DNA of 64,000 bases, taken from Phyllobacterium endophyticum. Its GTDB lineage: Bacteria > Pseudomonadota > Alphaproteobacteria > Rhizobiales > Rhizobiaceae. Location of the stretch: contig NZ_PGGN01000001.1 of the NCBI RefSeq assembly GCF_003010935.1, positions 868,001 through 932,000 of the forward strand, read 5' to 3'. The first letter of the stretch is position 1. Each line of letters begins with the position of its first letter. This document shows positions 9,599-33,686 of the stretch, piece by piece. The position numbers were made by a program, and so were the translations under genes. The notes under the pieces were generated by a model, which made no database searches, had not been told where the DNA came from, and saw only the letters and a program-made list of their open reading frames with translations.

Positions 9599-10468
9599 TT
9601 ACTCCTGTAAAATCTAATCGAGATCCGGTTGGCGGCGGCGTTCTTCTCTCCGCAGGGGGATCGGCCAAGCCTCGCCTGCAGGATGCGTGCAGCATCTACC
9701 CCGGAGGAAGCGACCCGAAAATGACCACCTATCCTGCCGAAAGCACCAATTTTCACGCAATGCTTGTCGAAAACAAGGCATCGTCACTGGTAAATGGCAG
9801 CCGCTGCATATCCCGCCCCAGGTACGGAACGCGACGGGAAGTTCTGCGGAGTACTCGAAGAGTAGCACAAAAATGGTGCACTGCAACAGAAGGTGCGTCC
9901 CAAAACCGTTGCGAACGGGCCACTAACCCCGTTATTTGGCGCTCAGCCGCCAATTCTCACGTGCATTCGGACAAAAAGCGTGCAATCGTGAATTCAATAC
10001 CGCTGGTCCTTCGCAAGTCGAGTGTGAATAAGCCCATTCATTTGGCTAAATATAGATGATTGTATAGTCCGCTTGGCGGCCGGGCAGATTGTATCGGTTC
10101 ACGCTATTGTGTGATTTTCCCGATGCCACGCAGCATCCCGTGTTTTTTTTGGCCGGGATTGTTCTCGGAACCGTATCTGAACGTAAAACAATTCTTTGTA
10201 AGCGTTGTTTCCTGTATTCGACCGGCGCAATACTCCAGAGAGCCCGAATTTCCCTTGAAACCGGTGGTTACAAACAAGAAAAATTGTTATACAGGAACGA
10301 TAACCGGCCGAAATCGTTTAATATAACCTCTACAGGTTTCTTAAGATTGGGTTGGCAACCATAAGAGAGTATTCATGTGCGTCTGTTAACGTGCGTGAAG
10401 GGGAGGATAAAAATGAAAAAAAGCCCACTTTCCGCTTTTCTCCGGACAAGGAACAGGAGCTGAGCAAT
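9599..10468. other. exoF-exoX regulatory intergenic region
   Basis: An unusually long 870-bp non-coding stretch. It contains one copy of the EPS palindrome (TGCACTGCAACA, 9877-9888), a looser copy (TGCCACGCAGCA, 10124-10135) and AT-rich sequence before exoX. A short frame opens at 10352 ahead of exoX but has no ribosome binding site. I saw no RNA gene. Confidence 0.5.
9875..9888 (+). promoter_or_regulatory. EPS palindrome site 1 (exoF/exoX region)
   Basis: GGTGCACTGCAACA; core TGC-ACT-GCA at 9877-9885. It is one of at least seven related sites in EPS-cluster intergenic regions, 279 bp upstream of exoF. Confidence 0.5.
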
Positions 10469-10741
10469 ATGAGATTCCCAAACTTTTTAGTTGGAATGTT
10501 TGGCGTTCTCATCGCATTCGGGATCGCTACTTACCTGATGACCGGATCGTTTTGGGCTACGATTGCCCAGACGCTGGCTTGCGCCGTCGTCATCCAGGTG
10601 GGTTATTTCGTCGCGGTCCTATTCCTTGTGGCACGCGAGAAACCGAAACCCTCCGAGAGAAAGCAGTCCGGGCAGATTGATGCCGGCGTTGCAAATACGC
10701 AGCCGCCGTTCAAATCCATCACACCGACTGAAACGCACTAA
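10469..10741 (+). CDS. exoX: ExoX, exopolysaccharide production repressor
   Basis: A 90-residue inner-membrane protein starting MRFPNFLVGMFGVLIAF with two membrane segments (about 8-25 and 32-53) and a polar cytoplasmic tail. This is the architecture of ExoX/Psi, which lowers EPS synthesis post-transcriptionally, probably by acting on the ExoY galactosyltransferase; its dose relative to exoY sets EPS output. The start at 10469 follows GGAGCTGAGCAAT. A longer frame starts at 10352, but its N-terminus is polar and lacks a site. Confidence 0.88.
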   Translation: MRFPNFLVGMFGVLIAFGIATYLMTGSFWATIAQTLACAVVIQVGYFVAVLFLVAREKPKPSERKQSGQIDAGVANTQPPFKSITPTETH

Positions 10742-10908
10742 CCGGCAAAAAGCCCTGTATCTTTCTGCCTCTTGCGGGGAGGCGAAATAATTGTATCTTC
10801 CCCCTGACCAACCGCGGTTGATCCAGCATTGCCTCGCAATCGGAATCTCCCGCAGAAAAATCAACCCGCATGCGGGGTTCGGTCGTGCAGCGTCGGATCG
10901 AGGGCTGC

Positions 10909-11952
10909 ATGGTCGCACAACTTGAGGCAGGGGCAATTACCGATAATTGGGACAATAGCGTCTGCGTGATCATCGCTGCGAAAAATGCAGCCGATACAAT
11001 CGCAACCGCCATATCATCCGCCTTGAACGATGCGTACGTCAAGGAAGTGATCGTCGTGGACGACGGATCGACGGACGGAACCGCCAAAACAGCCGAAGAG
11101 ACGGATGACGGGAGCGGGCGCCTGCGCGTCATTCGTTTCGAGGTGAACAAGGGACCCTCCTTTGCGCGCAACCACGCCATCTCATGCTCCTCCGCAGCTT
11201 TGATCAGCATTCTCGATGCCGACGACTTCTTTCTCCCGGGGCGTTTTTCTGAGCTTCTGGCGACACAGGACTGGGATTTGGCGGCCGACAACATCGCTTT
11301 CATCGATCAGCGTTGGATCAGCAGCCTCGACACACTTTCAATTCGCAGGTTTTCGCCGGAACGATGGTTTCTCGATCTGCCGACATTCGTCGAGCGCAAC
11401 ATTTCGAGGCCCAACAAGCAGCGGGGAGAACTCGGGTTTCTGAAGCCTGTCATGCGGCGGGAGTTTCTTGACCGCCATGATCTGCGTTACAGCGAGAAAT
11501 TGCGGCTCGGCGAAGACTACGATCTCTACGCGCGCGCGCTGGCACTCGATGCGCGGTTCCAGGTCATCAACAATTGCGGCTATGGCGCCGTGGTGCGGGC
11601 GGATTCGCTGAGCGGCAGGCACCGGACCGAAGATTTGAAGCAACTCGCCGATGCCGACAGGTTACTGCTGGAAAGCGGGCTTCTGGCGGGAAGATCGAAG
11701 CAGGCTGTTCTGGAGCACGAGCGCCACATGCGTGGCAAGTATCACCACCGCCAGTTTCTGGATCTCAAATCACAAAAGGGGCTTGTTTCAGCGGGATTTT
11801 ATGGCTTGGCCAATCCATCTGCAATCGTTCCCATCATAGGGGGTGTCCTCAGGGACAAGCTCGACGGCTTCACCAGATCTTCTGGAAAGAATGAGGTGCC
11901 CACCGGGGATTTGCCCGCTCCGCGTTATCTTTTCCCCGACGCGGCAAGATAG
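10909..11952 (+). CDS. exoU: ExoU-like family 2 glycosyltransferase
   Basis: A 347-residue GT-A enzyme. The nucleotide-sugar motif DDGSTDG is at 51-57 and the metal-binding DADD at 103-106; RLGEDYDLYARAL in the middle carries the likely catalytic acidic region. Overall it looks most like ExoU, which adds a late glucose of the succinoglycan repeat, but ExoO and ExoW are close relatives, so the exact step is uncertain. The ATG at 10909 follows GAGGGCTGC; an upstream ATG at 10870 has no site. It sits 167 bp after exoX. Confidence 0.78.
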   Translation: MVAQLEAGAITDNWDNSVCVIIAAKNAADTIATAISSALNDAYVKEVIVVDDGSTDGTAKTAEETDDGSGRLRVIRFEVNKGPSFARNHAISCSSAALISILDADDFFLPGRFSELLATQDWDLAADNIAFIDQRWISSLDTLSIRRFSPERWFLDLPTFVERNISRPNKQRGELGFLKPVMRREFLDRHDLRYSEKLRLGEDYDLYARALALDARFQVINNCGYGAVVRADSLSGRHRTEDLKQLADADRLLLESGLLAGRSKQAVLEHERHMRGKYHHRQFLDLKSQKGLVSAGFYGLANPSAIVPIIGGVLRDKLDGFTRSSGKNEVPTGDLPAPRYLFPDAAR

Positions 11953-11987
11953 AGCCGGCAAGCCCCGCACTCATACTTTATGCTTAT

Positions 11988-12000
11988 GGTGCATTGCACC
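11988..12000 (+). promoter_or_regulatory. EPS palindrome site 2 (before the PhyH-type gene)
   Basis: GGTGCATTGCACC, a perfect odd-length palindrome; core TGC-ATT-GCA at 11990-11998, about 110 bp before the dioxygenase start. It shares TATGGTGCA with sites 1 and 3. Confidence 0.5.
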
Positions 12001-12110
12001 AAAAGGATCGATGGACTAAGCTTGCCGCAAAAATCAGAGACATCCGGGGAGGATTGCGAGTGGACGCGGGCGGCTGAATATTTGCAGCCGGACGAACAGA
12101 GGACGCAGAC

Positions 12111-13085
12111 ATGACTGACTTGCAGACGAACAAGTCTCAGACCCCAAGTCTGGAAGCTATTGCGCGAACTGGCGGTTCACTTCAGCGGATTGCAGCGCGC
12201 CTTCCAACCTACTGGGTGGATATCAAGGAAAACCCCGCCTGGCTGCCGATGTTTCTGCTTGCACGCACCATGCCGGCGCGCAAGGCCCATTGGCTTGGCG
12301 CCCGCGCTGTCAAACGAAGCGCGAATGCAGCGCCCAGCATGTTTTCCGGGATTGACGCCACGTCCGTCGCCGACAATCTGCGCAAGTCGGGTTTGTTTTC
12401 CGGCCTGGTTCTCCCGGATGCAATCCATCGGGAAATTGCGGATTTTGCATGCAAAACCCCGTGCTTCGGCAATTTCGACCGGCGGCTCGAGTTTCTACCC
12501 GGAGAACACGCCGAGGCCGAGAAGAAGTTCAATCGCTCGATTCTGAGCGGACATTATTTCGAGCGGGTTCTCGAGTGCGAAGCTGCCGTCGCCGTGCAAC
12601 GCGATCCGCTACTGGCTGATATCGCCGCCGATTATCTTGGCGGCCAGGCGAAATTGATCACAACGCGCATCTGGTGGAGCTTTCCGACCAAGGCGGCCTC
12701 TGCGGCGGACAAGCACCTCGCTTCGCAGGACAAGTTCCATTTCGATCTCGACGATTGGCGGATGTTGAAATTCTTTTTCTATCTCACACCGGTAGATGAA
12801 GAATCGGGCCCGCATGTATATGTCGAGGGGAGCCATATGCGGCGGCTTCTCAAGCACCAACTGACGCTTCTCGTCGGGCACCCGGCTGATGAGGTTCTTG
12901 GTGCCTATGGCGCCGGCAACGCAGTGACACTGACGGGGGGTGCCGGGCTCGGATTCGTCGAGGACCCATTCGGATTCCATATGGGCACAGTAGCAAAACG
13001 TTCGCCGCGTCTGATGATGGAGGTGGGCTTTGGTGTCTCGCGTCCATCCCGCCGGCGGTTTCACGGAGAGCCGGTTGTTCGCTGA
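12111..13085 (+). CDS. phytanoyl-CoA dioxygenase (PhyH)-like protein
   Basis: A 324-residue protein with the signature of Fe(II)/2-oxoglutarate dioxygenases of the PhyH type: His-x-Asp in DKFHFDLDDW (about residue 205), the distal His in FGFHMGT (about 290) and an Arg a few residues later (KRSPRLMM) that would bind 2-oxoglutarate. It has no signal peptide, so it should act in the cytoplasm. It lies inside the EPS cluster between a glycosyltransferase and a pyruvyltransferase-like gene, behind its own EPS palindrome. No standard succinoglycan role exists for such an enzyme; the substrate is unknown. Confidence 0.8.
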   Translation: MTDLQTNKSQTPSLEAIARTGGSLQRIAARLPTYWVDIKENPAWLPMFLLARTMPARKAHWLGARAVKRSANAAPSMFSGIDATSVADNLRKSGLFSGLVLPDAIHREIADFACKTPCFGNFDRRLEFLPGEHAEAEKKFNRSILSGHYFERVLECEAAVAVQRDPLLADIAADYLGGQAKLITTRIWWSFPTKAASAADKHLASQDKFHFDLDDWRMLKFFFYLTPVDEESGPHVYVEGSHMRRLLKHQLTLLVGHPADEVLGAYGAGNAVTLTGGAGLGFVEDPFGFHMGTVAKRSPRLMMEVGFGVSRPSRRRFHGEPVVR

Positions 13086-13134
13086 CGACCCAGCTACAGT
13101 CGCAGTCAAAGGCTCCGCAACGGAATAGAGTTTC

Positions 13135-14514
13135 ATGAAAATCATCGTCGAGAATACTGTCTGCCTGAACACGGGCGACGCAGCGATCCTGCTTGCCATC
13201 AGGCATATATTGCGAACCGTCTGGGGCGAAGATCTGCAGTTTCAGGTGTTCGACAGTCAACCGGAAGTCGCCGCCAGGCTCTATCCTCCGAGCGAATATC
13301 CGGATCTCGAATTTCACAAACTCCTGTCTGAGTCCGTCTTCAAGTACAACTACGATCAAAATGTCCTCAAGAACGCGATCAAGCCGCTCTATAACAGGAT
13401 CGTGCTGCGTGCGTTGCGCAAGTTCGCCAGGGGCGGGCAACCCGCAAAGGCGCTGTTCAGCGAAACGGATCGCCGTTCGCTCGCGATCTACCGCGACGCC
13501 GACCTGGTGATCACGACGGGCGGCACATATCTCGTCGAAAACTACAATCTCGAAAGGCGTCTGAACCAGTTCCGCATAGATGCGATCCTCGGCAAGGATC
13601 CTGTGTTCTTCACGCAATCGCTGGGACCATTCGACAAGGAATATAATCGCCGGGAACTGAAGCCGGTTTTCGACCGCAGCCCTCTGATCCTGCTGCGCGA
13701 CGCCCGGTCCAAAGAGCATATAAGCGATCTCGTGGCAGATTCGGGCAAATGTCACGTGGTGGCGGATGCCGTGTTCGCACTCGCCGATACAGACCGGATA
13801 GCTGGAATTCTGGCGTCGAACGGGGCACCCGTGACCGGCCGCGTTGCCATTTCTGTCCGGCACTGGAACTACGTCAAGGGCGGCGGCAACGGCATGGACC
13901 GCTATCTCGATGCGATCCGCAATATCGTCACCATCCTCGTCAGGGAACAGGGAAAAGAGGTAACCTTCCTTTCAACCTGCCAGGGCGTGCCGGAATATGC
14001 CCATGATGATTCCAAGGCGGCCAAGGCGATCGTTGCGGGGCTCGATCCCGAGATCGCAGCGCATGTCAGCGTCGACGCCGCCTTCCATACGCCGGAGCAG
14101 TTGATGGCGGCGGTCAAGGGGTTTGACTTCGTTGTCGCCACGCGCATGCACATGATGATCATGTCCCTATGCGTTGGCACTCCCGTGCTTCCCATCGCCT
14201 ACGAGTTCAAGACCAAGGAAGTCGCCAAGCGCACCGGCGTCTCGGACGTCCTCTTGGACATCGATACCGTGACGGCGGAAGAAGCCGGCGAGAAATTGAA
14301 AAGCTTCACGCAGAATCTGGACCACTATCGCAGGACCGCGCTTCAGGGCGTTCTCGACGAGCACGCCTCGGCGATGTCAGCGACAGGGCTCCTCCGGCCG
14401 CTGCTCGATGCACCCTCAGCGGATATTGCCGGTGACCTTGGCAAGGGCGCCGAACAGGGCTTGGCGCGAGCGGGGAAGCAGCAGCATGAGGGCGAGCGCG
14501 ATCGCATAATTTAG
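13135..14514 (+). CDS. polysaccharide pyruvyl transferase family protein (WcaK/AmsJ-like)
   Basis: A 459-residue cytoplasmic protein of the pyruvyl-transferase superfamily. Landmarks are the N-terminal NTVCLNTGDAAIL, the central TTGGTYLVENYN and FFTQSLGPF, and the C-terminal ATRMHMMIMSLCVGTPVLPI. It is longer than S. meliloti ExoV (about 316 residues) and closer in layout to colanic-acid/amylovoran proteins. It probably adds a ketal pyruvate to a side-chain sugar. The last 99 bp overlap the 3' end of the flippase gene on the other strand. It follows the dioxygenase by 49 bp on the same strand. Confidence 0.82.
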   Translation: MKIIVENTVCLNTGDAAILLAIRHILRTVWGEDLQFQVFDSQPEVAARLYPPSEYPDLEFHKLLSESVFKYNYDQNVLKNAIKPLYNRIVLRALRKFARGGQPAKALFSETDRRSLAIYRDADLVITTGGTYLVENYNLERRLNQFRIDAILGKDPVFFTQSLGPFDKEYNRRELKPVFDRSPLILLRDARSKEHISDLVADSGKCHVVADAVFALADTDRIAGILASNGAPVTGRVAISVRHWNYVKGGGNGMDRYLDAIRNIVTILVREQGKEVTFLSTCQGVPEYAHDDSKAAKAIVAGLDPEIAAHVSVDAAFHTPEQLMAAVKGFDFVVATRMHMMIMSLCVGTPVLPIAYEFKTKEVAKRTGVSDVLLDIDTVTAEEAGEKLKSFTQNLDHYRRTALQGVLDEHASAMSATGLLRPLLDAPSADIAGDLGKGAEQGLARAGKQQHEGERDRII

Positions 14515-15876
14515 CACCAGTGCCAGGATGACTGAGCGCAGGTCGGCCCCCGTGGTCAATGACAGGGGAAGCGAAAAGTACGCGCCCCAGGCAAGGAGCG
14601 CTGAAACAATGAAAAGGCCCTGCACCAGAAGCACATCCATGGCGGTCACCGGGCCGATACGATGCACCAGCACGGCAAGGACCGGAACGCGCAGGATATA
14701 GCCGCTGATCGCATAGGCGGCGGCGACGCCGACAGCACCCCATTGCAGACCGACGACGAACGAGACGACTGTCGTGACCGAAGAATAGATGCCCCAACGG
14801 AACATGGTTTTCGTTCTGTCCTGGCAGATGAAGATCCAGCCCGTGGTGCTCGATATGGGCTGGATGAGCCCGGCGATGCCGAGCCAGGCGAAGATCGGGG
14901 CTACGGGCAGCCAGCGCTCGCCGAAGAGGATGCCGACGACCTGCGTCGAGGTCAGTGTCAGCGCAGCGATCGCCGGTACCGTGACTGCCGCAAGCACCCA
15001 GTTGGTCTGCATGTAGATATCGCGAAAACGCTTCTTGTCGTCCTGGATGCGGCTCAAGAGCGGGATCATGAGGCGCGTCAGCGGCTGGTTGATGTTCTGC
15101 AACGGAAACAGGAGAAGCTTGTAGGCGCGGTCGTAATAACCAAGCTCGATTGCGCCCGAGAACTTGCCGATCAGGATATTGTCGAGGTTGCGCGAGAAGA
15201 AATTGACAAGATTGAAACCTGTCAGATTGGCGCCGAAGGACATGATATCACGGTCGATCCGGAGCACCGGCTTGTCCGGCCTGAACCGGGCTACCCGCCA
15301 GGCCGCGAGCAAGCCAACGACGGCCGAAGCTGCGGGACCGAGTACCAGCGACCAATAGCCCATGCCGGCATAGGCGGCAAAGGCTGCCGTACCAAACCCC
15401 GCAATGGCAGTGACTACGTCGTTGATCGCAAGCTGGCCGAACTGGAGGTGCCGGTTCATCAGGCTGAGCGGCATTGCCGCCAGACTTCCAAGAAGGAGCG
15501 GCAGACCGGCGCCGATCGTGATGCCGACCATGCGCCCGTCGCCGTAATAGGCGGCGACGGCAGGAGCGAGAGCAATGACGATCATCGTGGTGACAAGGCC
15601 TGCGGCAGCGCTCATCCAGAATACCTGGTTCAGCTGGCGCTGGGTGATTTCCTTGCGCTGGACCACCGCCTGCTGCAGACCGAGATTCTGGAACAGTGCA
15701 ACGAAGGCAACAATCGGGCTGACGGAGGCGACGAGACCGAAATCCTCAGGGACGAGAAGACGCGCGAGGACAACGACCGAGAGGAACTGGACGCCGATCT
15801 TTATGGCCTGCGCTATGACCGTCAACAGCCCGCCGCGAAGGGCTATCCGGCCAAACTGGAGCGGCTCGGCGCTCAC
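14416..15876 (-). CDS. exoT: ExoT/WzxC-like polysaccharide flippase
   Basis: A 486-residue MOP-superfamily exporter with about 12-14 membrane helices, starting MSAEPLQFGRIALRGGLLTV; the motif FFSRNLDNILIGKFSG near 215-230 is typical of the WzxC/ExoT group. It would flip the undecaprenyl-linked repeat unit across the inner membrane. Last gene of the exoY-ugd-GT4-GT4-exoT run; its start overlaps the preceding gene's stop by 4 nt (ATGA). Its final 99 bp are antisense to the pyruvyl transferase gene. Confidence 0.85.
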   Translation of the reverse strand: MSAEPLQFGRIALRGGLLTVIAQAIKIGVQFLSVVVLARLLVPEDFGLVASVSPIVAFVALFQNLGLQQAVVQRKEITQRQLNQVFWMSAAAGLVTTMIVIALAPAVAAYYGDGRMVGITIGAGLPLLLGSLAAMPLSLMNRHLQFGQLAINDVVTAIAGFGTAAFAAYAGMGYWSLVLGPAASAVVGLLAAWRVARFRPDKPVLRIDRDIMSFGANLTGFNLVNFFSRNLDNILIGKFSGAIELGYYDRAYKLLLFPLQNINQPLTRLMIPLLSRIQDDKKRFRDIYMQTNWVLAAVTVPAIAALTLTSTQVVGILFGERWLPVAPIFAWLGIAGLIQPISSTTGWIFICQDRTKTMFRWGIYSSVTTVVSFVVGLQWGAVGVAAAYAISGYILRVPVLAVLVHRIGPVTAMDVLLVQGLFIVSALLAWGAYFSLPLSLTTGADLRSVILALVLNYAIALALMLLLPRSRQALFGALAKVTGNIR

Positions 15877-17051
15877 GCTTTTGACTTTTCGTTGGCCAGG
15901 CGCGCGATCATTTGCGCGAACTCGCCATTCAAGACGTCGGCGTTGAATTCCGACTCGACCTTTTTTCGTGCTGCCAGGGCGATGTGCTCACATGCGGCGG
16001 GATTTTCCGCGATCCAGGAAAGCTTGGCGGCGAGGGAAGGAGGATCTTTCTCCGGTACGAGAATGCCTGTCTTCTGATCCTCGACCAGTTCGGGAATGCC
16101 GGAGTGATAGGTGCTGACTGCAATCAGCCCGGCTGCCATCGCCTCCATAAGCGAAACAGGAATACCTTCGACGTCGCCGTCAACGGCTGTCACGCTTGGC
16201 AGGATGAACACGTGGGCCTGGCGCAAGCGCTGCTTGACCTCGCTGTGTGGACGCGGACCGAGGAACGTCACCTTGTCTGCAATCCCGAGATCCTTTGCCA
16301 ATTGCTTCAGCGCATCCTGCAATTCGCCGCCGCCTATGATCGTGTAGGACCAGTCGAGGCGGGGGGACGAAGCCGCAAGCTCTCCGAGAGCCCGCAAGGC
16401 AAACTCGATGCCCTTCTTCTCGGTCAAACGGCACACGGAAATGAACTCCAGGGTGCCGTGCTGCCAGGAGCGCCAGGAATATTCGATCTCCGCGAGCCGT
16501 ACGCCCATGTGATGCACCACGACTTTTTCCGCCGATGCACCAGCCTTCACGAGAGCGGTCCTGAAATAGTCATTTACCGTCAGTTGCAGCGCTCCCTGCT
16601 TGAAGAGCACGTCATACTGCCACAGGGAATTGTCCTGCATGGGACGGCCGACGTCTCGGCCATGAAAGATGGTAACGAGAGGAGCGGCGAGGTGCCTCCG
16701 CTTCAACACACGGGCAACGCGCAATCCATTGTTGCCGAAATGCGCGATGATGACATCGAAATTCCGGAGCTTCCTTGCAAAGAGGATATCGAAGGCAGTC
16801 GAAACCTTGTCCCAAAGTATCGCCGGCAGCTTCCGCAGCAAAGGCCGAAACACCGCGAGACTGCCCCACCACTGGACCGCGATGCCGGAAAGCGCCTGCG
16901 AGCTGGTTGCACTCCCGACATTCTCATTAAGTGCATTCCGGTTGCAGATGACGCAAACTTCGAAGCCCCGCTCCACAAAACCGTTTACCTGATCCAGAAT
17001 GAACGTTTCGGACAATGAGGGAAACGTGTCCACGACGAAACCAACTCTCAT
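15873..17051 (-). CDS. GT4 glycosyltransferase (WcaL/AmsK-like)
   Basis: A 392-residue GT-B enzyme starting MRVGFVVDTFPSLSETFIL, typical of the colanic-acid WcaL/amylovoran AmsK group. The C-terminal donor domain shows RLTEKKGIEFALRAL and, near the end, DGDVEGIPVSLMEAMAAGL with the E-x7-E pattern. It would add one sugar to the EPS repeat. The ATG at 17051 is preferred because homologues begin there; a TTG at 17069 is possible. Not part of the canonical S. meliloti exo set. Confidence 0.82.
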   Translation of the reverse strand: MRVGFVVDTFPSLSETFILDQVNGFVERGFEVCVICNRNALNENVGSATSSQALSGIAVQWWGSLAVFRPLLRKLPAILWDKVSTAFDILFARKLRNFDVIIAHFGNNGLRVARVLKRRHLAAPLVTIFHGRDVGRPMQDNSLWQYDVLFKQGALQLTVNDYFRTALVKAGASAEKVVVHHMGVRLAEIEYSWRSWQHGTLEFISVCRLTEKKGIEFALRALGELAASSPRLDWSYTIIGGGELQDALKQLAKDLGIADKVTFLGPRPHSEVKQRLRQAHVFILPSVTAVDGDVEGIPVSLMEAMAAGLIAVSTYHSGIPELVEDQKTGILVPEKDPPSLAAKLSWIAENPAACEHIALAARKKVESEFNADVLNGEFAQMIARLANEKSKA

Positions 17052-17097
17052 TATTGGGTATTCTTTCAATGTATTCTTCAGGAAACACCGAGCAGTA

Positions 17098-18177
17098 TCA
17101 CGCTACCTGTCTGGCATTATGCCCGGCTGCCTCGCCAAGCACGCCGAGGAAGGTTGAGAACTGGATCTTCGGGTCCATCTGCGGCCGTTCAGAAAACTTC
17201 CTGGCGGCGGCCGACAGCCGATCATATTCGCCCTTGTCACTCCAAAGCTTGCGGATTGCACCGACCCATTCATCCAGGGGAGCGTCGTAGTCCAGAATGA
17301 GACCACCCGCGCCAATCGCCTCGGGCAACCCGCCTCGGCGCGATCCGACGACCGGGATTCCGCTGCAATGGGCCTCGGAGGCGACGCGCCCCCATGCTTC
17401 TTCCCATTTGCTCGGTGCGAGCAGGATCTTGGTGCGGCCATAGACGGTTTTCATGTCGCTGGTGCGGTTCTCGAGCCGGATATTCTTATAGGGCGCGATG
17501 GTCTCTTCGATGCTGGCGCGATGATCGTCGGCAAGTTTCCAGCTTTCAACGAACAGGAACGGAATATCGGGACATTGACCGGCAATGCGAACGGCGAGTT
17601 CGAACCCCTTTTCCTTATAGGGGTTGATGAATGTCACATATTCGCCGCTCGTCGGTGTACCGTACAATACCGGATCGATCGTCGGTGGGATCACGGTAGA
17701 ATCGATGCCGAACTTTTCCTTGTAGGTTCTGGCGGTGAAATCCGAATTCGCGATATAGAGAGCCGTCTTCAACTCGCGCAGGTCGCCGGCGAGTTCGTGG
17801 AATTCCACGTTCCTGAGATAGATGACGAGGGGTACGCCCTCGGCTTCCAGGGCTTTGCCGATGGGCACGGATTTGTGGCACTGTACCACGGCGACATCCG
17901 GCTTGAGGCGGTCCACTGCGAAGGCGGCTGCCTCCCACGGAAACCACGCCCTGACGACCGGATATCCTGGAAAATTGTCAACGGCCGCGCGTTGGCCCAT
18001 GATTTTCATCTTGGCGCGCGCTTTCAGCCCGAACATTCCCTGACCGAACAAGGCAGCCAACACGGCAGCTTCATGGCCTTGGCTGCGCAATTGCTCCACC
18101 AGATGGTGCGTGCTGGATTGAACGCCGCCGCTGAACTGAGGATAGTATCCGTTACCGCCCGCAAAAAGAACATTCAT
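17098..18177 (-). CDS. GT4 family glycosyltransferase
   Basis: A 359-residue GT-B enzyme. The acceptor domain starts MNVLFAGGNGYYPQFSGGVQ; the donor domain shows INPYKEKGFELAVRIA and APSKWEEAWGRVASEAHCSG with the catalytic-type E-x7-E. AGGAG lies 7 nt before the ATG at 18177. It follows the UDP-glucose dehydrogenase gene by 40 bp, so it is a candidate for the glucuronosyl transfer that the dehydrogenase implies; that is inference from position. Confidence 0.82.
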   Translation of the reverse strand: MNVLFAGGNGYYPQFSGGVQSSTHHLVEQLRSQGHEAAVLAALFGQGMFGLKARAKMKIMGQRAAVDNFPGYPVVRAWFPWEAAAFAVDRLKPDVAVVQCHKSVPIGKALEAEGVPLVIYLRNVEFHELAGDLRELKTALYIANSDFTARTYKEKFGIDSTVIPPTIDPVLYGTPTSGEYVTFINPYKEKGFELAVRIAGQCPDIPFLFVESWKLADDHRASIEETIAPYKNIRLENRTSDMKTVYGRTKILLAPSKWEEAWGRVASEAHCSGIPVVGSRRGGLPEAIGAGGLILDYDAPLDEWVGAIRKLWSDKGEYDRLSAAARKFSERPQMDPKIQFSTFLGVLGEAAGHNARQVA

Positions 18178-18217
18178 CGCGTGGCTCCTTGTTATCCGGT
18201 TTCACCGGAGTATGACT

Positions 18218-19549: not shown

Positions 19550-19671
19550 AGGGTGATTCCTGTACAAGACAGCGGATCACGTGGGGATCCGCGCACTAAA
19601 ACGCTTTTGTGCCCCGTCAAGGGCACCGAACCGACCGCCACAAACACGTGTTGAGGCGATTCATGGAGATA

Positions 19672-20349
19672 TCAGTAGCTGCCCCTGGCCATGCAGACGG
19701 CGGGTACGGTCTTGATGATGATGTGCAGATCGAGCTTCAGCGACCAGTTCTCGACATATTGCCGGTCGAACGCCACGCGGCTGTCGTAGGATATGTCGTT
19801 GCGTCCGCTGATCTGCCACAGGCCGGTCAGGCCGGGACGTGACCTGAGATAGAATATGGCGGAGTTGCCGTAATTCTCCAGTTCATCCCTTACGACAGGG
19901 CGCGGGCCGACGAGGCTCATGTGGCCCTGGAGGATATTGATGATCTGCGGCAGCTCATCGAGGCTCAACTTCCTGAGCACAGCGCCGACACGCGTGACAC
20001 GGGGATCGTCCTTGAGCTTGCGCGTGGCTTCCCATTCGGCCCTTGCGTCGGGGTTTGCCGCAAAATAGCTGGCCAGCACAGCGTCTCCGTCCTCAACCAT
20101 GGTGCGGAACTTGAGGCATTGGAAAACCGTGCCGCCACGGCCTATCCGGCGATGGCCGTAAAAGACCGACCCGCCGCTGGACAAGCGAACGAGCAGTGCG
20201 ATGAGCAGGAAGAGCGGGCTGAGGGCGATGAGTGCCGCCAACGCGCCGAAAATGTCGAACCCGCGCTTCAGGATCCCTCCTAAAGCGGGGTCAAAGTCTG
20301 TATCGATATGGGGAAAGCTAAGTTCGGTCGATTTGACTGAATCGCTCAT
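19672..20349 (-). CDS. exoY: ExoY, undecaprenyl-phosphate galactose-phosphotransferase
   Basis: A 225-residue membrane enzyme that transfers galactose-1-phosphate to undecaprenyl phosphate, the first committed EPS step. One N-terminal membrane segment (about 33-55) precedes the bacterial sugar-transferase domain with KFRTMV (80-85), [13 protein letters not shown] and [13 protein letters not shown]. Length equals that of S. meliloti ExoY (about 226). The start at 20349 follows GGAGTTGTGCC; the longer frame from 20394 lacks a site. First gene of the five-gene minus-strand run; at least one EPS palindrome lies upstream. Confidence 0.93.
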
Positions 20350-20450
20350 GGCACAACTCCGGTCCGTACTGAATGGCTGATGCGACGATATCAAAAAGAG
20401 GGTCTAGCGATATCTGAAACGAGGCTAATACTAAAGTTGCATCAAAAATA

Positions 20451-20465
20451 TGGTGCATCGCAACA
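20451..20465 (+). promoter_or_regulatory. EPS palindrome site 3 (before exoY)
   Basis: TGGTGCATCGCAACA; core TGC-ATC-GCA at 20454-20462, about 105 bp upstream of the exoY start. A further TTGCATC half-site lies at 20437-20443. Confidence 0.5.
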
Positions 20466-20669: not shown

Positions 20670-20732
20670 CCACCCAGAGCCAGAAATACAGTCAAAAAAT
20701 GCAACTCCTCACAACCCGGGGATGTGGCGCTT

Positions 20733-20744
20733 TGTTGCGCTGCA
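20733..20744 (-). promoter_or_regulatory. EPS palindrome site 4 (exoQ-exoY region)
   Basis: Reads TGCAGCGCAACA on the minus strand; core TGC-N3-GCA. It lies 384 bp before the exoY start and about 100 bp after exoQ. Confidence 0.4.
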
Positions 20745-20843
20745 ATAGGGAAGCCGATGCACAAAGAAGCAGCTTCGCGAGCGTGAGGATCGGTCGCGGG
20801 AACCGTAGCCCATTGGAATTAGACAGGTGCGATCACGAAATTG

Positions 20844-22843: not shown

Positions 22844-22872
22844 TTGACAGGGGCCGCATCGCGTTGTGTTAT
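22844..22872 (+). promoter_or_regulatory. putative exoK promoter
   Basis: TTGACA (22844-22849), 17-nt spacer and TGTTAT (22867-22872). EPS palindrome site 5 starts 3 nt after the -10 hexamer, a position expected for a repressor operator. Confidence 0.5.
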
Positions 22873-22874
22873 GA

Positions 22875-22886
22875 TGCAGTGCAGCA
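22875..22886 (+). promoter_or_regulatory. EPS palindrome site 5 (exoK promoter)
   Basis: TGCAGTGCAGCA; core TGC-AGT-GCA at 22875-22883, overlapping the expected transcription start of exoK and about 80 bp before its start codon. Confidence 0.5.
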
Positions 22887-22966
22887 AAGAACTCTGCATA
22901 ATTCGGATTAAACCTGACTTCGGCTTCTTGCTGATGTGCCTTTTCTCCATAAAGAAAGGAAGATCG

Positions 22967-23755
22967 ATGGTCGCCACGATTTCACGCCTGGTAGCGCTTT
23001 CAAGCCTCGTCATTGCACTTGGCCCGCTCGGATTTTCGCTCGCCCATGCCGAGGATACCGGCAAGTCTTTCGTTGAAGATTTCACCAGCCTGGACAAGAA
23101 GCGCTGGTACGTTTCTGATGGCTGGTCCAACGGCGCCCACCAGAACTGCACATGGTCGGCGGGACAGGTCAGCGTGAAAGACAAGACCCTGACGCTCGGC
23201 TTTGCACCTCAGAAGACTAAGGATCGCGACTACGCGTGCGGAGAAATCCAGTCGAAGGCGCGCTTCAGCTATGGCACCTATGAGGCTCGCATCAAGGCCG
23301 CCGCGGGTTCAGGCTTCAATACCAGTTTCTTCACCTATATTGGCCCGGCACAGAAACAACCCTGGGATGAAATCGACTTCGAGTTTCTCGGCAAAGACCC
23401 ATCCAGGGTCCAGTTGAATACATATGTCAACGGCAAGGGCGGCAACGAGAAGATGGTCGAAGTGCCCGGAGGAGCAGATAGCGGGTTCAACGATTACGCG
23501 TTCGTTTGGGAGAAGGATCGCCTGCGTTACTTCGTCAACGGCAAGCTGGTGCATGAGGTCACGGACCCGGCGGCGCTTCCGACCCACCCGCAGAAAATAT
23601 ACTTGAGCCTGTGGGCCAGCGACAAGATGAAATCCTGGCTGGGCGCCTTCAGCATGCCGGAAGCGCCCGTAAAGGCCGAGTATAGCCGAATCGCATTCAC
23701 CGCGCCGGGCGAACCGTGCCAGTTTCCAGAATCCGTTGCCTGTTCGTTGAAGTGA
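22967..23755 (+). CDS. exoK: ExoK, secreted endo-beta-1,3-1,4-glycanase (GH16)
   Basis: A 262-residue glycoside hydrolase of family 16 that cleaves nascent EPS to give low-molecular-weight chains. A signal peptide ends at about AHA|ED (residue 28). The catalytic motif E-I-D-F-E lies at 135-139 (nucleophile E135, acid/base E139). Length is close to S. meliloti ExoK (about 269). The ATG at 22967 follows AAGGAAG; the frame extends upstream to 22844 but that part is promoter. It is controlled separately from exoL by its own promoter and EPS palindrome. Confidence 0.92.
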   Translation: MVATISRLVALSSLVIALGPLGFSLAHAEDTGKSFVEDFTSLDKKRWYVSDGWSNGAHQNCTWSAGQVSVKDKTLTLGFAPQKTKDRDYACGEIQSKARFSYGTYEARIKAAAGSGFNTSFFTYIGPAQKQPWDEIDFEFLGKDPSRVQLNTYVNGKGGNEKMVEVPGGADSGFNDYAFVWEKDRLRYFVNGKLVHEVTDPAALPTHPQKIYLSLWASDKMKSWLGAFSMPEAPVKAEYSRIAFTAPGEPCQFPESVACSLK

Positions 23756-23842
23756 TATTTTGCAATGACACCAAACCCATGCCTGATTTCAGGTAATAAT
23801 GCAGGAATTGTCGATATGGATATCGATGCACGCAAGCGAGAA

Positions 23843-23854
23843 TGTTGCACTGCA
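23843..23854 (-). promoter_or_regulatory. EPS palindrome site 6 (before exoL)
   Basis: Reads TGCAGTGCAACA on the minus strand; core TGC-N3-GCA at 23846-23854, 50 bp before the exoL start codon. Confidence 0.5.
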
Positions 23855-23903
23855 AAAAATACCATACTAGGCTGCCTGTGCAGATCGATTGCGGGATAGT
23901 TTC

Positions 23904-25076
23904 ATGCTGCATGTCCTGTACCTGGTGCATGATCTTTCCGACCCCGCGGTGCGGCGCCGGGTGATCATGATGCAAGCCGGCGGCGCGACCGTGACGCTCG
24001 CCGGCTTCACGCGAAGCAGCGCGCCGGTAGAACAGATTGCGGGCGTCGTTCCGGTTGATCTCGGTAAAACAAGCGATGGCAGGTTCGCGCAGCGTCTCGC
24101 CGCTGTTGCCCGTGCGGCGCTAACTCTCGGCTCAAGCCTCAAGGGCGTTGTGCGGCCCGACGTGATCATCGGCCGCAATCTGGAAATGCTTGCGCTTGCC
24201 AATCGGGCTAAAGCGCTGTTCGCCACCAATGTGCCGATCGTTTATGAATGCCTCGATATCCATCGACTGCTTTTGCGGCGCGACCTGACTGGCAAGGCTT
24301 TCCGGTTCGTCGAGCGGACGCTCGGCAGCAACGCGCAGCTCCTGATCACCTCATCGCCTGCATTCGTCAGACAATATTTTGCTCCCTTCGGCCAGATGAA
24401 CCTGCCGGTGGAGCTCGTGGAGAACAAGGTGCTTGAACTCGTGGAGCCGGAAATGCGGGCAACCGGCTCCAGCCCGGCTGCCGGCGAACCCTGGAAGATC
24501 GGCTGGTTCGGAGCCCTTCGTTGCCGTCGCTCTCTGGAACTGTTGTCTGCCTTCTCGCGCAAGATGGAAGGCCGGGTCGAGATCGTCCTGCGAGGGCGGC
24601 CGGCCTATACGGAGTTCGACGATTTTGATCGCTTCGTCGCCGATGAACCCTTCATGCAATTTCATGGCGCTTACGCAAATCCGGAAGATTTGCAGAAGAT
24701 CTATGACGAGGTGCATTTTTCATGGGCCATCGATTTCTACGAGGCGGGACAGAATTCCAGCTGGCTTCTGCCGAACCGGCTCTATGAGGGATGCCGGTAT
24801 GGTTCTGTGCCGATAGCCATGCAGGACACTGAAACGTCGTTGTTCCTGCGGGCTCGGGACATCGGTTATTCTATCGCGGAACCGAGCGTCAAGGCTCTTG
24901 CGGGCCTTTTCGATACAATCGATGCCGAGCGCTACGAGAGCGCGCGGGAAAAGGTCAAAGCGCAGGAACGGGAAACCTGGGTGTTCGACCAGAACAATTG
25001 TCGGGCGCTGGTGGAACGTCTGGGACGGCTGACGCAGTCTTACGGGCAAGGCACCATACTTCAGGTCGCAGCCTGA
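23904..25076 (+). CDS. exoL: ExoL-like succinoglycan glycosyltransferase
   Basis: A 390-residue cytoplasmic protein of GT-B-like layout: MLHVLYLVHDLSDPAVRRRV at the N-terminus, YECLDIHRLLLRRD near 118, WKIGWFGALRCRRSLELL near 198 and LLPNRLYEGCRYGSVPI near 290. This matches rhizobial ExoL, which adds the third sugar. The ATG at 23904 follows GCGGGA; a TTG at 23889 is also in frame. First gene of the exoL-exoA-exoM-exoO run; EPS palindrome site 6 lies just upstream. Confidence 0.82.
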   Translation: MLHVLYLVHDLSDPAVRRRVIMMQAGGATVTLAGFTRSSAPVEQIAGVVPVDLGKTSDGRFAQRLAAVARAALTLGSSLKGVVRPDVIIGRNLEMLALANRAKALFATNVPIVYECLDIHRLLLRRDLTGKAFRFVERTLGSNAQLLITSSPAFVRQYFAPFGQMNLPVELVENKVLELVEPEMRATGSSPAAGEPWKIGWFGALRCRRSLELLSAFSRKMEGRVEIVLRGRPAYTEFDDFDRFVADEPFMQFHGAYANPEDLQKIYDEVHFSWAIDFYEAGQNSSWLLPNRLYEGCRYGSVPIAMQDTETSLFLRARDIGYSIAEPSVKALAGLFDTIDAERYESAREKVKAQERETWVFDQNNCRALVERLGRLTQSYGQGTILQVAA

Positions 25077-25121
25077 CCGCGCTTGCGGCAGGGCAACACG
25101 GAAACAGGAGACGCAACTACA

Positions 25122-26129: not shown

Positions 26130-27109
26130 CCGGCTTGGATGATCACCAAAACAGCGCGGGCGAAATCCGGGTCGACATTTGCGTCTGTACCTATCGCCGG
26201 GAGGAACTGAAGGCGACGCTGCTTTCGCTCGCGAAGCTGAGGCTACCGGAGAATTGCCGCGTCCGGGTCATCGTCGCCGACAATGATATCGAACCCAGCG
26301 CCAAAGCACGGGTTGCGCTCCTTGCGCCTGAACTGCCGTTTGAAGTGCGGTATATTCACAGTCCGTCAGCGAATATATCGCTTGCCCGCAATGCCTGCCT
26401 CGATGCAAGCACAGGCGACTACGTGGCGTTCATCGATGACGATGAGACCGCCTCGGAAGAATGGCTGGCACAATTGCTGACCAAGGCGCGCGACACGAAT
26501 GCCGATGCCGTACTCGGACCCGTTCAGGCAACTTATGCGAGCGATGCGCCGCAATGGATGAGCACAGGGGATTTCCACTCGACATTTCCCGTCTGGGTGC
26601 GAGATGAAATCCTGACCGGATATACGTGCAACGTGCTGTTGCGACGTTCGTCGGCGGCCTTGGGCAGCCGCCGGTTCAGCCTGGCGCTCGGAAAAACGGG
26701 CGGCGAAGACACGCAGTATTTCAGCGAGTTGCACGAGGCAGGCGGCAAGATCTCGTTCGCAGCGGACGCCTGGGTGTTTGAACCGGTCACGCCCGGCCGT
26801 GCAAACTTCAACTGGCTTTGCAAGCGGCGCTTCCGCATGGGCCAGACCCATGGGCGCATGCTCAGGAGCAGAACCGCAGGTGTCAAGCGCGGTACCCAGC
26901 TCTTGCTTGCAGGCGCCAAGGCGAAGTTCTGTATGGTTGTCGCGCTGTTGACCGCCTTTTCCGCAACCCGCCGCAACCGATGGTTCCTGCGCGGCATCAT
27001 GCATGCGGGCGCTGTCAGCGGGCTGATGGGTGTCAGGGAAATCGAGCAATATGGTCTGGGCCAGGACGCGATGATACCGGCGAGGAGCGATAAATCCCGT
27101 GCAGCCTGA
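26126..27109 (+). CDS. exoM: ExoM-like glucosyltransferase
   Basis: A 327-residue family 2 glycosyltransferase: VDICVCTYRREEL near 16-28 and the metal-binding DDDE at 104-107, with GGEDTQYFSELHEAGG as the likely catalytic loop. S. meliloti ExoM adds the fourth sugar. The true start is the ATG at 26126, overlapping the exoA stop (ATGA); a frame open back to 25715 merely runs inside exoA. Its end overlaps exoO by 11 nt, indicating coupled translation. Confidence 0.87.
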   Translation: MTGLDDHQNSAGEIRVDICVCTYRREELKATLLSLAKLRLPENCRVRVIVADNDIEPSAKARVALLAPELPFEVRYIHSPSANISLARNACLDASTGDYVAFIDDDETASEEWLAQLLTKARDTNADAVLGPVQATYASDAPQWMSTGDFHSTFPVWVRDEILTGYTCNVLLRRSSAALGSRRFSLALGKTGGEDTQYFSELHEAGGKISFAADAWVFEPVTPGRANFNWLCKRRFRMGQTHGRMLRSRTAGVKRGTQLLLAGAKAKFCMVVALLTAFSATRRNRWFLRGIMHAGAVSGLMGVREIEQYGLGQDAMIPARSDKSRAA

Positions 27110-28043
27110 TGTCACGTTCATCATTGCCGCCTACAACGCCGAAGGCACGATCTTGCGCGCCATCGAAAGCGCGCTTGCCCAGCGCGAGGTCGGTGTCGAG
27201 GTAATCGTGGCCGACGACAGGTCGACCGACAGCACCGCCGCTGTCGCTGCATCGATTGCCGACGATCGCGTGACTGTCGTGACGCTGGAGCGCAACAGCG
27301 GGCCCGGCGGCGCACGCAACGCCGCTCTTGCCCATGCGAAGGGCCGGTGGATCGCAGTGCTCGATTCGGATGACGCGGTGTTTCCGGATCGCCTTGCCTC
27401 GATGATAGCCCGCGCCGAAAAGGCCGGGGCGAATGCTGCCGTGGACAATATCGAGGTGATCGCGGATGGCAAGACGAGGGGCGAAACGATGTTTCCCGCG
27501 GATCATCTCGCGAAAATCGGGGAGATCACACTTGCGGACTTCATAGCGTCCAACCTCGTTTTCGAGTCTACATTCAACTATGGCTACATGAAGCCGATCT
27601 TTGAGCGCCGGTTCATCGAGGAGAATTCTTTGCAGTATGACGAAACGCTTCGTATCGGCGAGGACTATATATTTCTCGCATCGATCCTGGCTAGCGGCGG
27701 GAAGTGCGTCGTAGAGCCCTCGGTGGGCTACGCCTATCACGTAAGGTCGGGCTCGATCTCGCGTGTTCTTGAACTGCACCACGTCGTCTCCATGCTAGAT
27801 GCAGACAGGAAATTTACCGGAAAATTCGAACTCGACGCCGGGGCCAGAGCGGCGCAGGCTCGAAGGACACGTAGCCTTGAGCAGGCAAAATCGTTCCTCT
27901 CGCTCGTCGGGCACATCAAACGACGATCGATCGGAGGGATAGTCAGAGTTGCCCTGAGCGACCCTGTAGCCCTGCGCCATCTTTCGATGCCTATCGCAAT
28001 AAGGCTAAGGCGGTTATTGCCGGCATTGCAGAGACCGGGTTGA
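27099..28043 (+). CDS. exoO: ExoO-like glucosyltransferase
   Basis: A 314-residue family 2 enzyme with DDRSTD (39-44), DSDD (89-92) and RIGEDYIFLASIL in the acceptor region. ExoO adds the fifth sugar in S. meliloti. It starts at GTG 27099 inside the end of exoM, and no better start reads into MQPDVTFIIAAYNAEG. It closely resembles the ExoU-like protein at 10909, so the two steps could be exchanged. Confidence 0.83.
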   Translation: MQPDVTFIIAAYNAEGTILRAIESALAQREVGVEVIVADDRSTDSTAAVAASIADDRVTVVTLERNSGPGGARNAALAHAKGRWIAVLDSDDAVFPDRLASMIARAEKAGANAAVDNIEVIADGKTRGETMFPADHLAKIGEITLADFIASNLVFESTFNYGYMKPIFERRFIEENSLQYDETLRIGEDYIFLASILASGGKCVVEPSVGYAYHVRSGSISRVLELHHVVSMLDADRKFTGKFELDAGARAAQARRTRSLEQAKSFLSLVGHIKRRSIGGIVRVALSDPVALRHLSMPIAIRLRRLLPALQRPG

Positions 28044-28124
28044 TTGAAGGCCCGGTACTATTTCGACCACATGGTGAGTTTACGACATAATAATCGTACT
28101 GAGTAGAAAAAGACTGGCGGTAAA

Positions 28125-31551: not shown

Positions 31552-33594
31552 CTATTGCAGCTGGAAAGCCGCACGCTTCTCGGGGTTTTTGTCACTGATC
31601 GGTTGGACCTTCACGCCGCCGGCAATCGACTGCTTGAAGATTGCGCGCTCGAGAGGCGCAGCGAGCGACTCGGCATAGGGGGTTGCGATGTGGTGACGAT
31701 CGCGGAAGGTCAGTTTGCCGTCGATCATGGCGTGACAACGCGTGTCGCTACAGAAGAAATTGGTCATGTCCACATAGCGGGCGTTCTTGATGCCTGAGAT
31801 GATTCCTTCTTCGATTCGAGCATCATTGTCATCGGCGGCAGCCGCCCGCGGCGTATCACAGACCGACGGGTCTCTTTTCTGCCAGAGCGCCCGTGCAACG
31901 CATTTGTCGAGATAGGATGTGTGTGTGGGAACGTCCCTGATGAAGACCACATTGATCCCGGCATTGCCAAGCGTTTCGACTGTCGATTTCAATCCTTGGG
32001 CCCATTGCTGTTTCCGCGCCGCAAACTCCGACGGATCGCCGATTTCATTGGGTAGATTGCTTATAGCGAGTTGCGAGATGATGACCGTGCGCGGCTTCAT
32101 CGCGAGGATCTCCTTGAGTGCAAGCTCCCTCCAGTCGTTGCATTCGGTATATTCCCGCCGCAGCTTCGAATCCCTTGTCGTGATTCGCGTCGCCCGGCAT
32201 GACGATTTGAGGTAGGTAACCAGACGCAGATTGTCCTTCTCCGCTATGTCGACGAGAGGTGTCGACCAATGATCCGCATGGGAATCGCCGAACAGCACGA
32301 CTGTTTCGCTTGAAGACTGCGCGCCGAACACGCAAGGTTTCGGCTTCACCGTTTCAAGATCGAGCACGCAACTCTTATCCTTGGCGCGGACCGCAGACGG
32401 GCGTTCAGCGGTTTCCAGGATCGCCTGCTGCTGTGGCGTAAGGTTGTGTTTGGCCAATGTGGCACTCGCATAGGCGACCGTGACGCCGGTCACTGTGAGC
32501 AGTCCTGCAAAGACGAGAGAGCGGCGCGTTCCTGCGACCAGCCACTTGTTCTGCCGTATGGGGTTCTCGACAAAATGGTAGCTGAAGAGCGACAGGGCGA
32601 ATGTCAGCACCAGAAGCAGCACGCGATGTATGAGCGTAAGGTCCGGGATCAGCATGGTTCCATAAACGATGACGGGCCAGTGCCACAGGTAGAGCGAATA
32701 GGATAGTTTACCGGTCAGCTGCATCGGCGCAAGCGCAAGAATGCGCCTCGGTCCGAGAAGGCTTTCGTGTACGCCGCTGAGGAGCACCATGACGGTCCCT
32801 GCTGCAGGTATCAGCGCTATGAACCCGGGAAAAGCAGATTCCTCCGATACGCTCAGATAGGCTGCAATGATCATGACCAGTCCGAGCCAGCCCATGGCAG
32901 GCGAATAGGAAAAGCGCCGGGACCAGTTGTTCAGAACCGCCATTGACGCAAGGCCGCCCAAGGCAAATTCCCATGCCCGGAGGGGCGAAAAATAAAACGC
33001 CCAGGGTTGCGAAACGGTTGTCAGCCATGCGCAGAGGGCAAAAGATATCACGGCAACGCCGATCATCAGCAAGAGGACGCCGTGCTTTCCGGGGCGCATT
33101 CGCGCAAACAGCAGGAGAAGTGCGGGCCAAGCCAGATAGAACTGTTCCTCGACCGATAGCGACCAGAAGTGAATGAATGGATTATTGGAAGCATCGACAG
33201 CGAAATAGTCGAGCGACCAGCGGATCAGCCACAGGTTGATGATGTATGTCGAGGCAAACAGCGCTCCCTTCGAATAGAGCTGCTGTTCGGAGGGCGCCAA
33301 TATGAAATACCCGGCGACCAGCGTGACCAGAATGACAAAAAGTGATGCAGGAAGCAGACGTCGGGCACGGCGGGCATAGAACGTCCAGAGATTGACCGTG
33401 CCGTGCCTGGCTATTTCCTGTTGCAGATGCCTGGTGATGAGGTAGCCGGATATGACGAAGAAGATATCCACGCCGACGAAGCCGCCAGGAAGTTGGGTAA
33501 GACCGAAATGGAAGGCGACCACTCCAGACACTGCCAGGGCACGTAGCCCCTCGATATCGGGGCGAAATGAATTTGATGTGGTGACGGCGCTCAT
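31552..33594 (-). CDS. AT3-SGNH fused O-acyltransferase (second copy)
   Basis: A 680-residue membrane acyltransferase with the same layout as the gene at 2355-4427. The N-terminal AT3 domain holds FRPDIEGLRALAVSGVVAFH and SLSVEEQFYLAWPALL; the periplasmic SGNH domain holds GDSHADHW and the late DRHHI. Members acylate surface glycans. Its position in the EPS cluster and the EPS palindrome upstream make it the likelier decorating enzyme. MSAVTTSNSFRPDIEG at 33594 is the preferred start; the frame extends to 33684 with a polar tail. Confidence 0.86.
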   Translation of the reverse strand: MSAVTTSNSFRPDIEGLRALAVSGVVAFHFGLTQLPGGFVGVDIFFVISGYLITRHLQQEIARHGTVNLWTFYARRARRLLPASLFVILVTLVAGYFILAPSEQQLYSKGALFASTYIINLWLIRWSLDYFAVDASNNPFIHFWSLSVEEQFYLAWPALLLLFARMRPGKHGVLLLMIGVAVISFALCAWLTTVSQPWAFYFSPLRAWEFALGGLASMAVLNNWSRRFSYSPAMGWLGLVMIIAAYLSVSEESAFPGFIALIPAAGTVMVLLSGVHESLLGPRRILALAPMQLTGKLSYSLYLWHWPVIVYGTMLIPDLTLIHRVLLLVLTFALSLFSYHFVENPIRQNKWLVAGTRRSLVFAGLLTVTGVTVAYASATLAKHNLTPQQQAILETAERPSAVRAKDKSCVLDLETVKPKPCVFGAQSSSETVVLFGDSHADHWSTPLVDIAEKDNLRLVTYLKSSCRATRITTRDSKLRREYTECNDWRELALKEILAMKPRTVIISQLAISNLPNEIGDPSEFAARKQQWAQGLKSTVETLGNAGINVVFIRDVPTHTSYLDKCVARALWQKRDPSVCDTPRAAAADDNDARIEEGIISGIKNARYVDMTNFFCSDTRCHAMIDGKLTFRDRHHIATPYAESLAAPLERAIFKQSIAGGVKVQPISDKNPEKRAAFQLQ

Positions 33595-33674
33595 AGGCTG
33601 GTCAAACTCCCAGTCTCGGAAATCTCCTGCCGGGGCAGCATAAGTGAAATTTGACGCGTTGCAACAAAAGTTTG

Positions 33675-33686
33675 TGCGGCGCAATA
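33675..33686 (+). promoter_or_regulatory. EPS palindrome site 7 (before the AT3-SGNH gene)
   Basis: TGCGGCGCAATA; core TGC-GGC-GCA at 33675-33683, about 80 bp before the acyltransferase start at 33594. It differs at one position from the consensus tail. GTTGCAACA occurs at 33658-33666. Confidence 0.4.

Follow-up and report, generated by a model that had tools for sequence, protein, structure and literature searches.

We examined a 64-kb stretch of the Phyllobacterium endophyticum genome (the window, C4 868001-932000 in a genome of 5.51 Mb) that holds a cluster of exopolysaccharide (EPS) genes, among them exoF-, exoX/SyrA-, exoY- and exoL-like genes, exoK, a PhyH-like gene and an acyltransferase-SGNH gene (Table 1). 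A palindrome recurs between these genes. A first-pass annotation had placed copies before exoF/exoX, the PhyH-like gene, exoY (two), exoK, exoL and the acyltransferase gene. All seven were found where it put them, and a pattern search agrees that six fit TGCRNYGCANCA exactly and the last, 33675-33686, with one mismatch. Our reading, to which we give a probability of about 0.92, is that the palindrome is the operator of PhaR (AniA), which represses EPS genes and genes related to polyhydroxybutyrate (PHB) until PHB relieves the repression. In the genome itself this reading rests on the sites, on their match to a PhaR matrix, on how enriched and how conserved they are, and on further sites at PHB-related loci.

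Form and rarity of the palindrome

The repeated element spans 15 bp and is palindromic, TGNTGCRNYGCANCA, its arms being rich in A and T. Full copies of it lie at 9874-9888, 11987-12001, 20451-20465 and 22872-22886, and these four sites therefore match on both strands. The TATGG or ATGG that had been described as a shared upstream element is present, but it is not a separate feature, being the outer TG arm of the palindrome together with its A/T-rich flank.

The window has 10 matches to TGCRNYGCANCA when both strands are counted, whereas 100 dinucleotide-shuffled versions average 1.49 and never exceed 7. In the whole genome the 12-bp pattern matches 132 times and the reversed pattern 24 times, TGNTGCRNYGCANCA occurs at 11 sites with zero mismatch, and TKNTGCRNYGCANMA occurs at 31 sites versus 0 for its reversed-pattern control. 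Five of these 31 lie in a 14-kb part of the EPS cluster (Poisson P ~2e-8, a value that is merely indicative because the region was singled out for its sites). What sets the motif apart is its R-N-Y centre together with its outer TG..CA arms. Bare TGC-N3-GCA had been expected about once per 4 kb and taken as rare, which does not hold, as the window contains 32 occurrences. The first-pass figure of less than 3 kb for the total intergenic DNA was not reproduced either: rough gene calls with ends trimmed by 30 bp give ~5.5 kb in 9599-28124.

Match to published PhaR sites

The PhaR consensus of Sinorhizobium meliloti, WNWD2NYGCRNYGCRNH2WNW, also has A/T-rich arms (PMC12542648). Both it and the consensus of Bradyrhizobium diazoefficiens, TGCRNYGCASMA (PMC6201568), come close to the pattern of the first-pass annotation, which had pointed to sites of the TGC-N3-GCA type as bound by PhaR. 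For scoring, we built a position weight matrix (PWM) from S. meliloti promoters outside the EPS genes that PhaR is reported to bind efficiently (PMC12542648); the 14 sites in them that were used for training themselves score 15.5-26.7. Five sites of the EPS cluster reach at least 19, a sixth reaches 17.1 and two are weak (12.3 and 10.6), while the site before the PhyH-like gene (27.9) outscores all 14 training sites.

The background consisted of 780 kb (~14% of the genome) in 39 stretches, each of 20 kb, placed at fixed steps along contigs C4-C7. The first genome site lists were known by then but played no part in the choice. The phaR region (L127) was left out because it had been chosen on purpose. 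Gene boundaries come from our own rough gene finder, with which the gene-free part of the background amounts to 154 kb (closed-end calls, trimmed by 30 bp) or 91 kb (open-ended calls). The five sites of at least 19 in the window stand against three in the 780 kb, namely one before ppdK and a pair in a single stretch (L160). At a threshold of 12, the window has 8 sites outside genes (14.6 kb) and 0 inside, the background 14 outside (154 kb) and 10 inside.

The details of single sites modify the first description in places. Both exoY sites exist, ~64 and ~346 bp upstream of the longest exoY reading frame, but the distal one is weak here (12.3). Before the acyltransferase gene, 33675-33686 is present, but a better site at 33652-33666 (17.1 vs 10.6) had been missed; the two stand in tandem, 20 bp apart, and the gene start is more likely near 33594, downstream of both. 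At exoK, the site had been said to overlap the expected transcription start, and 22872-22886 does overlap the -10/+1 region of a promoter predicted by consensus only (TTGACA 22844-22849, 17 bp, TGTTAT 22867-22872).

Table 1. Predicted PhaR sites and genes discussed in the text (window coordinates; the matrix starts 3 bp before the palindrome).
Feature	Position	Strand	Matrix start	Score or evidence
PhaR operator (predicted) TGGTGCACTGCAACA, between exoF (minus) and exoX (plus)	9874..9888		9871	PWM 22.7
PhaR operator (predicted) before PhyH-like gene, perfect palindrome TGGTGCATTGCACCA	11987..12001		11984	PWM 27.9
PhaR operator (predicted), exoY-proximal	20451..20465		20448	PWM 19.5
PhaR operator (predicted), exoY-distal, weak here	20733..20747		20730	PWM 12.3
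PhaR operator (predicted) at exoK	22872..22886		22869	PWM 24.7
PhaR operator (predicted) before exoL	23843..23857		23840	PWM 21.6
PhaR operator 1 (predicted) of tandem before acyltransferase gene, TGACGCGTTGCAACA	33652..33666		33649	PWM 17.1
PhaR operator 2 (predicted) of acyltransferase tandem, 20 bp from operator 1	33672..33686		33669	PWM 10.6
Candidate PhaR site between rpsT and dnaA	51216..51230		51213	PWM 16.3
Decayed counterpart TGCCACGCAGCA of second, exoX-side operator of relatives	10124..10135	+		scores 2.3
exoF-like polysaccharide export gene	8315..9598	-		Poly_export + SLBB
exoX/SyrA-like EPS production repressor gene	10352..10741	+		PF11089 4.9e-12
PhyH-like gene	12111..13085	+		PF05721 7.5e-4, under curated cut-off
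exoY-like priming sugar transferase gene	19672..20394	-		TIGR03022 + TIGR03025, under cut-offs
exoK	22844..23755	+		NF052392 ExoK 436 bits, over cut-off; start more likely near 22967
exoL-like glycosyltransferase gene	23889..25076	+		PF13579; name exoL by position
acyltransferase-SGNH gene	31552..33684	-		PF01757 + PF19040
dnaA	49127..50665	-		PF00308, PF08299, PF11638

PhaR and PHB-related loci elsewhere in the genome

The genome has one phaR, with a single PF07879 match at C4:45614-45793, and one phaC. A near-identical protein, P0001, carries both PhaR domains, PF07879 (PHB_acc_N) and PF05233 (PHB_acc), and full-length identity to named PhaR proteins is 82-89% for several Phyllobacterium and 71% for P. 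salinisoli.

The motif also stands at PHB-related loci; the first-pass annotation had proposed to look before PHB genes. Tandem sites of 20.4 and 24.8 precede one phasin gene, and a second phasin locus has 15.6 and 17.2 at the called gene start; single sites belong to a PHB_depo_C gene (19.3) and an Esterase_PHB gene (19.6), and others lie before ppdK (22.1), a citrate synthase gene (20.4) and the mmgR small RNA (RF00519; 20.7, ~24 bp before the RNA). The S. meliloti counterparts of the phasin, depolymerase-type, ppdK, citrate synthase and mmgR loci are among the published PhaR targets (PMC12542648).

An Rfam search of ten loci of this genome (E <= 0.01) matched mmgR, ar14 (twice), Atu_C9 and two tRNAs; the remaining three of its nine matches fall short of the gathering score. 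One ar14 small RNA (RF02344, L171 1316-1435 minus) is preceded, at ~41 and ~63 bp, by two PhaR-like sites of 15.1 and 19.2 with a spacing of 22 bp (L171 1476-1518; C4 near 1144951). A pair scoring 25.0 and 20.6, 30 bp apart, at L177 1149-1199 (C5 near 316151) precedes a DUF2157 membrane-protein gene and is also ~263 and ~293 bp upstream of the second ar14. The very strong site at L187 1038-1058 (26.8; C7 near 196240) falls between convergent genes, 165 bp ahead of the Atu_C9 small RNA (RF02503, plus).

Conservation of the sites in relatives

The wider set consists of the best 80 of 249 ExoK-relative loci in the genome collection, that is, the closest ExoK relatives; loci were dropped if the gene was not found, if the match started after residue 60, or if less than 300 bp of upstream DNA was present, so that n is below 80 for each gene. 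The genus sample comprises 20 genomes, our own included.

In the wider set, a site of at least 13 lies upstream of exoY in 52 of the 53 usable loci, and one of at least 16 upstream of exoL in 57 of 73. At exoY, exoL and exoK alike, all 300 column-permuted matrices stayed below the true counts, and dinucleotide-shuffled upstream regions reach 13 in 2.6% (exoY), 1.0% (exoL) and 0.7% (exoK) of cases. The exoY sites comprise 39 different sequences, mostly near -325 or near -15; they are therefore kept while sequence and place change. Genes internal to operons have no such upstream site (exoA 0/69, exoM 0/68, exoO 0/34, exoP 0/31). At the threshold of 13, there is likewise none before ugd (0/52), the 17098 glycosyltransferase (0/44) or the phosphatase gene at 30471 (0/20); the counts are 4/66 for the 10870 glycosyltransferase, 1/10 for the 15873 glycosyltransferase and 2/2 for the exoQ-like gene.

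Across the four closest Phyllobacterium loci, the exoY-proximal site is inside a conserved block, and the distal one aligns with the best exoY site of those loci (22.4-25.0). The exoL site is aligned in all four. The exoK core is identical in them and overlaps the end of a conserved promoter of the TTGACA-17-TGTTAT/TGAAAT type (spacing counted in the window and in L048). A separate block upstream of this promoter, GCGAATGCGACCTTAAAAAGGCA at 22735-22757, is nearly unchanged in the same four loci.

Within the genus sample, five other genomes have close exoF orthologues (82-84% identity), and all five carry a site of 18.7-19.4 in the same place. All five also have a second site on the exoX side (17.5-19.3, sequence TTTGCGCTGCAACAT), with which the window DNA TGCCACGCAGCA aligns. 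The close orthologues of the acyltransferase gene (77-84%; two have a stop inside the match) have the tandem pair in 5 of 5 cases, operator 1 scoring 16.3 in each and operator 2 15.3-15.7. The PhyH-like gene occurs in 2 of the 20 genomes, our own included, and at different loci, which suggests gain or movement; the other copy has a site of 17.5 ~90 bp upstream (1/1).

Overall, the sites recur in relatives, unevenly, at exoY, exoL, exoF and the acyltransferase gene. Judged by these alignments and counts, conservation is broad at exoY, limited to the genus at exoF and the acyltransferase gene, and limited to certain lineages at exoK and exoL.

Two neighbouring gene types should also be mentioned. 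A site of at least 13 precedes the wzx relative in 35 of the 55 loci counted for that gene, and for the pyruvyl transferase gene the figure is 9 of 9 (loci L047-L126); in the window, no PhaR-like site lies directly upstream of the wzx-like or pyruvyl transferase-like gene. The PhyH-like gene and a polysaccharide pyruvyl transferase-like gene together span 12111-14514.

How the operators would work

In S. meliloti, PhaR binds the exoY, exoL and exoH promoters in gel shifts; loss of phaR raises the expression of these genes and, on TY medium, raises EPS (PMC12542648). PHB sequesters PhaR there, and loss of phaR restores EPS in a phbC mutant (PMC12542648). By analogy with that species, binding, repression and the PHB switch are likely to operate in P. 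endophyticum as well. PhaR, a repressor that binds both DNA and PHB and has a single gene elsewhere in the genome, would then occupy its operators when PHB is low and hold down exoY, exoK, exoL, exoF/exoX, the PhyH-like gene and the acyltransferase gene, and likewise the phasin and depolymerase genes. At exoK it could block the promoter sterically. Once PHB granules form, PhaR would be soaked up and the EPS genes freed, and polysaccharide would therefore be exported when carbon is in excess. The suggestion of the first-pass annotation that a single regulator, possibly PhaR, ties EPS to carbon storage is supported by the S. meliloti matrix, the sites at PHB loci and the conservation, and PhaR has the best in-silico support of any regulator.

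Alternative explanations and points of doubt

It could be asked whether the enrichment is a matter of chance, since TGC-N3-GCA is common (the 32 copies in the window) and matches might have been picked from A/T-rich intergenic DNA. This we regard as extremely improbable: neither the 100 shuffles nor the 300 permuted matrices reproduce the counts, and the idea is contradicted by the orthologous sites at exoY, exoF and the acyltransferase gene of relatives. A different, EPS-specific regulator with a motif resembling that of PhaR would explain why eight sites are found in one EPS region, and the PhaR core is short. Such a regulator is nevertheless very unlikely: loci of the phasin, PHB_depo_C, Esterase_PHB, ppdK and mmgR kinds have been reported as targets of PhaR and carry comparable sites in this genome, and the matrix was derived from PhaR sites outside EPS promoters. 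A more serious, if still the less probable, alternative is that the sites are real PhaR sites of which some are inert or activating, so that the cluster is not uniformly repressed. The S. meliloti motif is also reported at seven PhaR-activated genes, and at a guaB promoter that PhaR does not bind (PMC12542648); moreover, the distances of the exoY sites from the longest reading frame are ~64 and ~346 bp, and the exoX-side site has decayed in the window. Against this, PhaR represses exoY, exoL and exoH in S. meliloti (PMC12542648), and the exoK site overlaps the predicted promoter.

Repression by PhaR through these operators remains our preferred reading, and several observations should be weighed against it. 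Some concern the spread of the sites. The exoK site is found at a threshold of 13 in 10 of the 59 loci of the wider set, and upstream of exoK in P. phragmitis (L052) and P. salinisoli (L054) there is none. At exoL, 16 of the 73 loci are without a site, as are 11 of 17 genomes in a second, wider sample; control of exoL is therefore limited by lineage, with 6 of 17 having the site. Upstream of exoF, none of 47 loci in the wider set has a site, which confines that one to close relatives, and of two genus homologues at 64-65% identity one scores 11.5 and the other has nothing over 9.5. The nearest permuted matrix came to 54 of 73 at exoL versus the true 57, at a threshold of 13. Others concern the genome at large. 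Of the 31 TKNTGCRNYGCANMA palindromes, 7 are inside called genes (scores 11-18), 1 more is in a short doubtful reading frame, and 2 score below 11. The matrix scan found no site of at least 11 at the phaR locus (L046). At a second phasin locus, sites of 15.6 and 17.2 lie at the called gene start; the start is uncertain because they fall inside the called N-terminus, upstream of the domain match. Finally, PF07879 is absent in 40 of 393 family genomes, and we compared 22 PhaR-lacking genomes (nine listed, thirteen inferred) with 24 hand-picked, mostly large genomes (23 with PhaR and G019, which is outside the PF07879 sample). At 1e-20, exoL was found in 0 of the 22 and 17 of the 24, which leaves no PhaR-free exoL promoter to compare.

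A candidate site upstream of dnaA

A further candidate lies ~557 bp upstream of dnaA, between rpsT and dnaA. A site in the same place scores at least 13 in 16 of 18 genus genomes (own included) and at least 10 in 17 of 18. When eight upstream regions are aligned, the core substitutions in seven are confined to degenerate positions of the published consensus, and the eighth (L285) has lost the site. The argument is weakened because the surrounding DNA is also well conserved. In other families, 1 of 12 genomes has a site of at least 13 upstream of dnaA, at another place. The word dnaA is absent from the main text of PMC12542648; a literature search linking PhaR with dnaA gave nothing related by title, a weak negative as subscription journals were mostly uncovered. 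Binding of PhaR upstream of dnaA in Phyllobacterium as well, through which the PHB store would feed both replication initiation and EPS output, is doubtful on present evidence. We treat this candidate as a lead, the most novel one. If it were true, carbon storage would also gate replication in root-associated bacteria.

Comparison with known PhaR systems

The PhaR proteins of Paracoccus denitrificans and Rhodobacter sphaeroides likewise recognise a TGC-rich region (as cited in PMC10888616), but the statements there concern phasin and phaR promoters. The PhaR of Bradyrhizobium diazoefficiens (Nishihata et al. 2018, PMC6201568) has the consensus TGCRNYGCASMA, derived from footprints and promoter comparison, and loss of phaR raises EPS and an exoZ-containing operon. 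However, the EPS genes and promoters are not those of the window.

The closest system is that of S. meliloti (Lagares et al. 2025, PMC12542648), which shares the palindrome and the targets exoY and exoL; exoH there heads an operon that contains exoK. The companion targets are also the same, namely phaP, phaZ, a PHB-depolymerase-type gene, mmgR, ppdK and gltA (PMC12542648), and the exoL site of one relative (L266) equals the published S. meliloti exoL site letter for letter. The connection of PhaR to EPS is thus already published (exoY, exoL and exoH of S. meliloti) and not new in kind. Phyllobacterium differs in its additional predicted sites, and what is new are the candidates at exoF/exoX, the PhyH-like gene and the acyltransferase tandem and the genus-conserved one upstream of dnaA. 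Further candidate targets of PhaR therefore include exoF/exoX, the acyltransferase gene, small RNAs and possibly dnaA. These results suggest that exo promoters of Phyllobacterium, Mesorhizobium and relatives carry the PHB-to-EPS link of S. meliloti, the sites persisting at exoY and coming and going at exoK and exoL.

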